Shown here: positions 39,498 to 43,218 of the stretch, in pieces
How the letters are laid out: each line of letters begins with the position of its first letter
Position numbering within the stretch: the first letter of the stretch is position 1
Source of the DNA: Luteibacter jiangsuensis
GTDB taxonomy: Bacteria > Pseudomonadota > Gammaproteobacteria > Xanthomonadales > Rhodanobacteraceae
Assembly: GCF_030812295.1 (NCBI RefSeq)
Contig: NZ_JAUSSK010000002.1
Coordinates: forward strand, 1-64,000
Length of the DNA stretch: 64,000 nucleotides
Reading direction: 5' to 3'
Made by a program: the position numbers and the translations under genes
The notes under the pieces: generated by a model
Database searches by the model: none
What the model was told of the DNA's origin: nothing
What the model saw: only the letters and a program-made list of their open reading frames with translations

Positions 39498-40358
<861 letters not shown>

Positions 40359-40389
40359 GTGTGGAACCTCCTGAAAGTCTGTATGCAGA

Positions 40390-40416
40390 TTAGCAGTCCC
40401 GAAGTGAGAGTGCTAA
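40390..40416 (-). promoter_or_regulatory. CIRCE element (HrcA operator) upstream of rpoH
   Basis: Plus-strand TTAGCAGTC-N9-GAGTGCTAA matches the CIRCE consensus TTAGCACTC-N9-GAGTGCTAA at 17 of 18 arm positions, with the exact 9-base spacer. It sits 31-57 bp upstream of the rpoH ATG, between promoter DNA and ribosome site, the usual HrcA repressor position. HrcA itself is outside the window. Confidence 0.88.
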
Positions 40417-40431
40417 GTCAGCCCGAAGTTC
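40405..40431 (-). promoter_or_regulatory. Candidate sigmaE-like promoter of rpoH
   Basis: On the minus strand GAACTT (40431-40426) is followed, after 16 bases, by TCTCA (40409-40405), close to the ECF/sigmaE pattern GAACTT-N16-TCTGA. It overlaps the CIRCE, so HrcA would block it. E. coli rpoH also has a sigmaE promoter, which supports but does not prove the assignment. Confidence 0.4.
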
Positions 40432-40685: not shown

Positions 40686-41387
40686 CTAGACGGTCAGTTC
40701 CGCCTTGGGCGGCAGCGACCAGTCGATCGGCGGCTCGCCTCGCGACTCGAGATAAGCGTTCGCCTGGGCGAAGTGGCCGCAACCCATGAAGCCACGATGC
40801 GCGGACAGGGGGGAGGGATGCACGCTGCGCAGGATCTTATGGCGCCTGCCGTCGATCAGCTGGCCCTTCTTCTGTGCGTGGCTCCCCCAGAGCATGAAGA
40901 CGAGGCCTTCGCGTTCGCGGTTGAGGGCGTCGATGGCGGCGTCGGTGAAGCCCTCCCAGCCCTTGCCCTGGTGCGAACCCGCCTGCCCCGCCTCCACCGT
41001 GAGCACCGCGTTGAGCAGCAGCACGCCACGGTCGGCCCATGGAGTGAGGCAGCCGTGGTCGGGGCGCGGGATGCCGAGGGAATTCTCGATTTCCTTGAAT
41101 ATGTTCTGCAGAGAAGGGGGCACGCGCACGCCGGGCCGCACGGAAAAACTGAGGCCGTGCGCCTGACCGGGGCCATGGTAGGGATCCTGGCCGAGGATGA
41201 CGACGCGCACCTTGTCGAACGGCGTGTGCGCGAACGCGTTGAAGATATCCGGACCGGGTGGGTAGATCGTCTTGCCTCGTGCCTTTTCTTCGCGAAGAAA
41301 GGCCGAGAGCGCCCGCATCTCCGGGCGATCGAGGTAGTCGCCGATCCTTTCTTTCCAGGACGGCTCGAGCTTCACGCGATCGTTCAA
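40686..41387 (-). CDS. ung: Uracil-DNA glycosylase (family 1)
   Basis: 233 residues. Catalytic [16 protein letters not shown] at 66-81 contains the water-activating Asp; [25 protein letters not shown] follows near 124, and the DNA-intercalating [11 protein letters not shown] loop is near 190. It removes uracil from DNA to start base excision repair. The start is TTG at 41387, forming a TTGA overlap with the response regulator stop. That fits homologues, which begin a few residues before LEPSWKERI; a GTG at 41375 is the alternative. It is the last gene of ftsE-ftsX-regulator-ung. Confidence 0.95.
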
Positions 41388-42223
41388 CTTTCCGCCCTGT
41401 CGCGAAGGTGCAAGGCCACCCGGAGCTGGAACAGCAGCTTGGTGATGAGCAGTTTTTCCTCGACGGGTTTCTCTACGAGGTCGTTGGCGCCGGCGCGAAG
41501 GAGCGCCGCCTGGTTCGCGGGGTTCTCGTCACCGGTCATGATCAGTGTGGGGAGTTGCCCCTTGCCATAGCCGAACTCGTTGCGGATGCGTTCGACGAGG
41601 TCGCCACCGGTGAGTTCCCCCTTGAGGCTGACGTCGGTAAGGACCACGTCGGCGCCGATCTCGCCACGCGCCCTGGCTTCGCGCAGATGGATGAGCGCGT
41701 CCTCCGCACTGATGACATGGCGCACGGTAAGGCCGTACTTCTCCATCATGCGTCGCGTGGCAAGCGCCACCACGCGGCTGTCCTCGACATAGAGCACCTC
41801 GCCTTCCGCGCCGCCCTCGGGACGCACGTAGCCACGAATGAACTCCGCCAGGGCGCCGAAGCCCAGGGACTTGTCGAAGTAGTCGGTGACGAACTCGCCC
41901 AGTTCGCGCCGGTGCAGGCGCGCTTCGACGTCGCCGGAGACCACGACGATCGGCATATAGATCTGCGGGGCGGACTCGCGCACGAAACGCGCCACATCCA
42001 ACCCATCCATGTCGGGCAGGCGCAGCGCCACGGTGACGAAGTCGAAGACGCCACGCTGCAACTCGGCTTGCGCGTCGGCACCCGTGGAGGCGCCGACGAT
42101 CTCCACCCCCGGCACCTCCGCGTTGACCACGCGTGCGATCAACTGGCGAACGACCTTCGAGCCGTCCACCACGAGAATACGAGGCGTCGCGCCCGCGACA
42201 CCCGAACCGATGTGAGATCCCAC
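41384..42223 (-). CDS. Tandem-receiver response regulator with a degenerate first domain
   Basis: 279 residues from GTG 42223, with GGGGAGG upstream; no output domain. The first receiver (about 14-135) starts [12 protein letters not shown] and reads [13 protein letters not shown] where the phospho-acceptor Asp should be (the residue is Ala), so it cannot be phosphorylated. The second (about 147-275) is intact: [19 protein letters not shown] (Asp) and [10 protein letters not shown] (Lys). Two receivers with no DNA-binding or enzymatic domain suggest a phospho-relay or protein-binding adaptor. It is in an operon with ftsEX and ung, with overlap to ung and a 14-bp gap to ftsX. No cognate kinase is nearby. 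Confidence 0.85.
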
Positions 42224-42237
42224 CCCGCCCTCCCCTG

Positions 42238-43218
42238 TCAGGCCGCCGCGGCGCGGCGAATCTGGCGCGCGCTGACGAGCCGCGCACCGAGCCACCCCAG
42301 CACGGCCGAAGCGAAGGGTACCGAAAGCAGGAGCCAGGCGGGGAGTCCGCCGAAGCTCACGCTGCCGTCGTACGCCGCGGCCAGGCGGCCGACGGGTCCG
42401 GCAAGGGCCAACTCGAGGACCACGGCTAGCGCCACGGCAAGGACACCCGCCAGGAAGCCCAGCCAGATACCGGCATACAGGTACGGACGGCGGACGAACG
42501 GACGGCTGGCGCCGATGAGCAGGAGCACGCCGATCTCGGCGCTACGGCTCTGGATGTCGACACGAATCGTGTTGCCGACCACCAGCAGGGCGGCGATGCC
42601 GAGCAACAGCGCCAGCAGGCTGACTGCACGGGTACCCACGCCGAGCAGGGCATCGAGACGCTGTCGCCATGCACCGGTGTCCTGGACCATGTCGACACCG
42701 GGCGTGGCCTTCATCGAATCGACGAGGCGGCCGATGTCCTCGGCCGACAACCCGGGCTTGGGTTGCACGGAAAGCACATAAGGCAGCGGGTTGGCGTCGA
42801 GCGATTGCAGCGCGCCGGAAAACCCCTGTACCTCAGCCAGCTCGTCGAGGCCATCCTTCGGCGTACGCACGACGATGTCGGCCACTTCCGGACGACCGCG
42901 CAAGGCGGAAGCGGCGGTCTCGGCCATGCCCGCGTTCTGGCCCGGTTTCATGAACGCGCTGATGGACTGGTTGCGGCCGAGTGCATCGCCCATCCGCTGC
43001 ACGTTGCCGAGCAGGAGATAGAAGGTCAGCGGCAGGGCGAGCGCCACGCCCATCACGGCCACGGTAAGCAAGGTGCCGAGCGGCCGGGCACCGAGGCGGC
43101 GCAGGCTGATCGACATGCTCCAGGCGTGGTGTTCGCGCCACGCGCCGACCTTGCGCGGCTCGCTGCGGCGGGTCTTTTCCGGCTCGGGCGCGCGGCGCGG
43201 CTCGCGGACGGCGTTCAT
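42238..43218 (-). CDS. ftsX: Cell-division ABC transporter permease FtsX
   Basis: 326 residues with four membrane helices in the FtsX order: one near 50-72 (LLTVAVMGVALALPLTFYLLL), a periplasmic domain of about 120 residues, then three C-terminal helices (LLALLLGIAALLVVGNTIRVDIQSRSAEIGVLLLIGAS is the family core, split here). It pairs with FtsE to activate septal peptidoglycan hydrolases. A Lys/Arg-rich N-terminal tail is usual. ATG at 43218 overlaps the ftsE stop by ATGA. Confidence 0.93.
   Translation of the reverse strand: MNAVREPRRAPEPEKTRRSEPRKVGAWREHHAWSMSISLRRLGARPLGTLLTVAVMGVALALPLTFYLLLGNVQRMGDALGRNQSISAFMKPGQNAGMAETAASALRGRPEVADIVVRTPKDGLDELAEVQGFSGALQSLDANPLPYVLSVQPKPGLSAEDIGRLVDSMKATPGVDMVQDTGAWRQRLDALLGVGTRAVSLLALLLGIAALLVVGNTIRVDIQSRSAEIGVLLLIGASRPFVRRPYLYAGIWLGFLAGVLAVALAVVLELALAGPVGRLAAAYDGSVSFGGLPAWLLLSVPFASAVLGWLGARLVSARQIRRAAAA

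Follow-up and report, generated by a model that had tools for sequence, protein, structure and literature searches.

The window, a stretch of 64,000 nucleotides, carries on its minus strand the gene for the heat-shock sigma factor RpoH, with a CIRCE-like inverted repeat between a likely ribosome-binding site and the upstream DNA. The features of the gene and its immediate leader are as follows:

39498 to 40358, minus strand: rpoH, heat-shock sigma factor of 286 amino acids (TIGR02392 at 418.3 bits, cut-off 323.1; Pfam sigma-70 regions 1.2, 2 and 4)
40367 to 40372, minus strand: AGGAGG, likely rpoH ribosome-binding site, from direct reading
40390 to 40416, minus strand: predicted CIRCE (HrcA operator) with 9-bp arms and a 9-base spacer

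On the forward strand, the repeat reads TTAGCAGTCCCGAAGTGAGAGTGCTAA, i.e. TTAGCAGTC-N9-GAGTGCTAA, and agrees with the CIRCE consensus TTAGCACTC-N9-GAGTGCTAA at 17 of 18 arm positions, so that direct reading bears out the arms, the N9 spacer and the placement directly before rpoH that had been claimed from the letters alone. In rpoH orientation, the left arm TTAGCACTC is perfect and the sole mismatch lies in the right arm GACTGCTAA, with 31 bases between the site and the rpoH start codon (40358, minus strand); all columns given below are numbered 0 to 26 across the site, counted down from 40416 in this direction. With up to three mismatches, CIRCE is found once in the window compared to a mean of 0.02 in 100 dinucleotide shuffles and at two places in the whole 4.32 Mb genome, before rpoH and before groESL, with none in the reversed control. 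Shuffles and reversed control thus rule out a chance origin of the rpoH site. A laxer genome-wide pattern of 6-base cores with up to two mismatches showed no enrichment (187 matches versus 205 in the control).

The same genome encodes one copy of hrcA (TIGR00331, 317.3 bits), the presence of which had been singled out as a check on the operator claim, and a single RpoE that passes the family cut-off (TIGR02939, 319 bits, cut-off 236.15). The second genomic CIRCE lies 33 bases before the groES frame (C4:407677). Between ftsX and rpoH, positions 40686-42295 hold ung and a response regulator gene in which two stretches match receiver domains, while rpoH of E. coli directly follows ftsX.

Conservation of the site and its co-occurrence with hrcA

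Of 299 genomes sampled from the order, 287 have an rpoH match with an E value of 1e-60 or lower; we read the DNA upstream of the gene in 150 regions (30 loci and 120 stretches), a set that covers more distantly related rpoH genes too thinly. A CIRCE with up to three mismatches precedes rpoH in 127 of these regions, with no or a single mismatch in 84 of the 127; the reading of relatives' upstream regions that had been proposed as a check on conservation hence found the site kept. By family, it is present in 75 of 76 regions of the window's own family (f1), in 47/65 of f2, 3/5 of f12, 1/3 of f4 and 1/1 of f11, and all 14 regions from the window's genus have it. We take f1 to be the Rhodanobacteraceae because the closest named rpoH relative is that of Dyella flagellata, which is 84% identical and preceded by a perfect CIRCE. 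Judged by these sequences, the site before rpoH is a CIRCE-type operator in an arrangement common to relatives and not the oddity of one genome.

Across all 299 genomes, any CIRCE with up to three mismatches occurs in 171 of 174 genomes with hrcA versus 19 of 125 without it, and the corresponding counts at rpoH are 127 of 144 regions versus none of six; owing to the relatedness of the sampled genomes, Fisher values for these contrasts are not independent tests, and losses and arm changes are counted by genome and not by event. The six hrcA-less regions come from three families (genus g34 of f2, f12 and f4). Three of these genomes, all of genus g34 (G013, G150 and G165), have lost the left arm and retain both GGAACTT (as GAACTT-N16-TCCAA) and TGCTAAGAT. 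Conversely, 17 of the 144 hrcA-bearing regions have no CIRCE within three mismatches before rpoH, including all six of the Xanthomonas-like genus g54 and all four of genus g63 that were read, and repression of rpoH is therefore dispensable. At Xanthomonas-like loci (L287, L288, L290, L296 and L046), the left arm has decayed to CCAGCAGTC or CCGGCAGTC, and these genera still have hrcA and the sigma-E-type promoter (the hrcA status of L046 excepted). Xanthomonas pisi shows the same decayed left arm at rpoH.

Among the 19 genomes with a CIRCE-like sequence and no hrcA, the loci of seven, all of family f9, were inspected. Five of them (L023, L025, L026, L027 and L029) recur, each at the end of an open frame resembling a serine dehydratase gene, and none of the seven has an rpoH match. 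These sequences look like coding coincidences and were rejected as operators.

Since the 127 site-bearing regions were selected by their CIRCE match, conservation of the arms within them is partly by construction. Consensus bases at both columns 6 and 20 are found in 67 of them, and a symmetric change of both arms (C to G at column 6, G to C at column 20; TTAGCAGTC/GACTGCTAA) that keeps the dyad is found in another 34, many of which may be explained by shared descent. A C at column 20 only occurs in 16 regions; 11 of these belong to the window's genus, in which the right arm is changed at column 20 in 11 of 14 genomes and both arms are changed in two more. The remaining arm types are six that pair G with T, which is not symmetric, and four other combinations. 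In Xanthomonadaceae genomes, other CIRCE places carry the changed half-site as well, so HrcA probably accepts it there; the idea that the CAGTC half-site is a mark of rpoH only was dropped on the same grounds.

Predicted promoter elements interlocked with the operator

Promoters of sigma-E typically combine a GGAACTT-like -35 and a TCnnA-like -10 separated by about 16 bases. The window's rpoH has a predicted promoter of this form (GAACTT-N16-TCTCA, fitting GAACTT-N16-TCnnA) and, further downstream, a predicted extended -10, both of which run into the operator:

40426 to 40431, minus strand: GAACTT, predicted -35 of the sigma-E (RpoE)-type promoter, with GAAC at fixed offsets in most site-bearing regions of the order
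40405 to 40409, minus strand: TCTCA, predicted -10 of the sigma-E-type promoter, 16 bases after GAACTT; its first two bases (TC) close the left arm and the other three (TCA) open the spacer
40387 to 40395, minus strand: TGCTAATCT, predicted extended -10 of the housekeeping type (TG-n-TAnnnT), with 6 of 9 bases in the right CIRCE arm

GAAC stands 15 or 16 bases before CIRCE in 116 of the 127 order regions and is missing there in 11, compared to a background of 0.54% per offset further upstream (29/5334); counted by genus or family-group, it is at the fixed offset in 36 of 40. An A occupies the third spacer base (column 11) in 90% of the 127, which places TCnnA 16 or 17 bases after GAACTT, and a stricter sigma-E pattern is satisfied by 109 of the 127 site-bearing and 21 of the 23 site-less regions. 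On the other side, 98% of the 127 have a T three bases beyond the operator (column 29), and this T completes TGCTAnnnT with the right arm. The hexamer of this extended -10 matches TATAAT at four or five of six positions in 77 of the 127 regions, at three in 48 and at two in the remaining two; TAATCT of the window is weak, with three of six. Upstream of rpoE in the same genome, we again found GAACTT-N16-TCTCA (GAACTTGCAAGGCGCCCGCATGTCTCA).

An anchor defined independently of CIRCE, GAAC-N17..19-TCnnA, was found in 131 of 144 regions with hrcA and in five of six without. TTAGCA lies exactly 7 bases before the anchored -10 TC in 109 of the 131 versus none of the five, TGCTAA follows exactly 14 after the TC in 113 of 131 versus none of the five, and both are at their fixed places in 101 of the 131 hrcA-bearing anchored regions. 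In the anchored hrcA-less regions, TGCTAA is kept at another spacing. Taken together, the predicted elements suggest that CIRCE at rpoH covers a promoter of the sigma-E type and shares its right arm with an extended -10. Of the sequence-only reading's proposal of an HrcA operator at rpoH, the operator itself is supported by the presence of hrcA, the conservation of the site and its absence from the rpoH regions of the six hrcA-less relatives read, and what that reading had missed is the overlap with the promoters. At four loci without the site (L239, L240, L276 and L303), it is as though the downstream -10 were no longer tied to the operator: it reads TAGAAT or TAAAAT, nearer to consensus, at a distance of 14-17 bases from the sigma-E -10.

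The operators before groESL served as a control set, comprising 19 sites from 21 loci (two had no groES frame) that all belong to the window's own family. They represent the same operator for the same repressor, but differ from the rpoH site in that GAAC is at rpoH-type offsets in 0 of 19, the third spacer base is A in only two and column 29 is T in none. TAGAA or TAAAA immediately precedes CIRCE in 15 of these 19 groESL sites (L002 and L306-L323). The left arm may complete a -10 at groESL, an interlock unlike that at rpoH.

Distribution beyond the order and known systems

To gauge the breadth of the arrangement, we considered named rpoH loci, the best 80 of 592 candidates, 78 of which had enough upstream DNA. 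A CIRCE with up to three mismatches precedes rpoH in 42 of the 78, including Nitrosomonas, Pandoraea, Trinickia, Polynucleobacter, Methylocaldum and Pseudoalteromonas, and the enterobacterial and Vibrio loci of the set show no site within four mismatches. GAAC is at its offset in 22 of the 42 named sites, the third spacer base is A in 26 and column 29 is T in 41; with 22 for GAAC compared to 41 for this T, the -10 overlap is therefore steadier outside the order than the sigma-E part.

The exact composite (GAAC-N10..12-CIRCE with A at the third spacer base) occurs in at least 118 of 369 genomes of the class, a lower bound given that the pattern tolerates no mismatch beyond its ambiguity codes, requires the sigma-E part and leaves the window's own site unmatched; for the reversed control, there was none among the matches listed. 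All 30 composite loci examined out of the 118 lie before rpoH and have T at column 29. Split by hrcA status, the composite is found in 114 of 270 class genomes with hrcA versus four of 99 without, the latter four being only 62-79% complete. The other 156 of the 270 hrcA-bearing genomes have no exact composite, i.e. hrcA alone does not imply it.

Textbook control of rpoH derives from E. coli, which has no HrcA. Upstream of its rpoH (NC_000913) lies GAACTT-N16-TCTGA (GAACTTGTGGATAAAATCACGGTCTGA), presumably the promoter known as P3, of the same sigma-E form as the one before the window's rpoH, and in the 250 bases read no CIRCE covers this promoter. E. coli was not among the control genomes with an hrcA match.

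A reportedly related survey by Permina and Gelfand, which by its title covers regulons of beta-, gamma- and epsilon-proteobacteria, may already list a CIRCE at rpoH. In the open-access literature that names HrcA, CIRCE and rpoH together, as far as its consulted parts go, only the study of Rodionov and colleagues places a CIRCE before rpoH, namely as a prediction directly upstream of the gene at position -51 in Geobacter sulfurreducens (2004; PMC545781, Table 8). As in the present genome, that site accompanies others at groESL, and in G. sulfurreducens also at hrcA-dnaK; it differs in being a computational prediction for a delta-proteobacterium, and the consulted parts of the paper make no mention of an overlap with a sigma-E promoter. 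The impression of the sequence-only reading that a CIRCE at rpoH would be unusual is not supported, considering this prediction (PMC545781, consulted in part) and the wide occurrence in beta- and gamma-proteobacteria. No account of a CIRCE lying over a sigma-E promoter at rpoH was found in the parts of the open-access literature searched, a scope that most subscription papers lie outside of. Within the same consulted literature, the link of HrcA and CIRCE to rpoH is not new and the overlap with the promoters is the new part.

Among relatives of the window's genome, the consulted parts of the respective papers describe rpoH as essential in X. campestris (PMC6085468) and suggest that HrcA acts on groESL in Xylella (PMC3224663), and those of two further papers (PMC1978210 and PMC10490939) contain nothing on HrcA or CIRCE at rpoH. 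According to the consulted parts of PMC6032397, GroE increases DNA binding by HrcA and is titrated by misfolded protein in B. subtilis, C. trachomatis and H. pylori. At the groE and dnaK operons of H. pylori, HrcA binding overlaps core promoter elements and transcription start sites and is raised by GroE; in contrast to the arrangement at rpoH, the targets there are chaperone operons, and HrcA acts on them together with HspR (PMC6032397, same parts).

A candidate gate on rpoH transcription

We consider it likely that HrcA genuinely uses this site as an operator, one that covers the rpoH promoters and gates sigma-E and housekeeping transcription. Binding of HrcA and occlusion of the promoters, like the direction and size of the effect, are what we infer from the observed sequences, positions and conservation, from the presence of hrcA and rpoE and from the absence of the site in the rpoH regions of the hrcA-less relatives read, and the GroE dependence of HrcA as well as its binding over core promoters are carried over from other bacteria (PMC6032397, consulted in part). 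With enough free GroEL, HrcA would be active and sit on CIRCE, where it would keep RNA polymerase from both promoters: that of sigma-E, with its -10 and its predicted start (near 40398) within the operator, and that of the housekeeping sigma factor, with an extended -10 that shares the right arm and a predicted start near 40380. Once misfolded protein occupies GroEL, HrcA activity would be lost and both rpoH promoters would open, envelope stress on top of this would let sigma-E add further drive to rpoH, and the chaperones made upon the rise of RpoH would restore HrcA.

A different view of the same conservation would be that only the promoter elements are conserved and that the resemblance to CIRCE arises as a by-product where a sigma-E -10 and an extended -10 lie next to each other, with HrcA inactive here. 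The 23 site-less regions lend this some credit, given that 22 keep the sigma-E-type pattern and 18 have TGnTAnnnT nearby, though by a loose pattern scored at whichever of several spacings fitted best. TTAGCA, however, is required by neither promoter element and yet stands at its fixed place in 109 of the 131 hrcA-bearing and none of the five hrcA-less anchored regions; the arms have changed together in the 34 symmetric cases, leaving aside the six asymmetric pairs of G with T, and the distance between the two -10s varies from 14 to 18 in site-less regions outside g54, g63, G231 and G096. We thus regard a mere by-product as very unlikely. Still less credible, to the point of being extremely improbable, is the idea that the palindrome serves as a thermometer-type hairpin in the leader of the rpoH transcript: its arms are able to base-pair in RNA, and symmetric arm changes would preserve a hairpin just as they preserve an operator, but the fold of 121 nt with the site is ordinary (z -0.80, with 39 of 200 shuffles as stable), sigma-E-type transcripts would begin inside the site and have no full hairpin, and the co-occurrence with hrcA would be left unexplained.

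It is rather doubtful, though a more serious concern, that HrcA binds but has little effect in the window's genus, whose sites have one weakened arm, and that sigma-E together with the translation or stability of RpoH would dominate. The altered right arms of that genus and the decay of the site in g54 and g63 despite hrcA agree with such a minor role; the use of the variant half-site at other CIRCE places of Xanthomonadaceae and the retention of the site throughout the genus speak against it.

Extending the gate by HrcA to hrcA-bearing beta- and gamma-proteobacteria in general, we lean slightly towards a single CIRCE interlocked with both -10s through which envelope stress could raise rpoH only under GroE overload. 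Such an ancient logic gate would have been lost along with HrcA in, e.g., E. coli, leaving a bare sigma-E promoter behind. If true, the two classical heat-shock systems would form a hierarchy from GroE over HrcA to rpoH in many proteobacteria instead of parallel branches, and the responses to envelope and cytoplasmic stress would converge on one 27-bp site. Relatives that have the promoter elements and neither hrcA nor CIRCE would then be natural controls.

The idea of a feedback loop led us to search for sigma-32 promoters before hrcA, where the best match reaches 10 of 13 positions here and in 4 of 30 other loci, a score that shuffling one other locus also yields in 3 of 100 cases, and no sigma-32-type element shared by all 31 upstream loci was seen. 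Within 330 bases upstream of hrcA, the best CIRCE match has at least seven mismatches in all 31 loci. At rpoH itself, a weak sigma-70-like promoter at 40480-40452, upstream of the operator, is a possible additional housekeeping promoter. It overlaps a terminator-like hairpin that follows ung on the minus strand (40484-40467), one such site being near chance with 0.4 expected.
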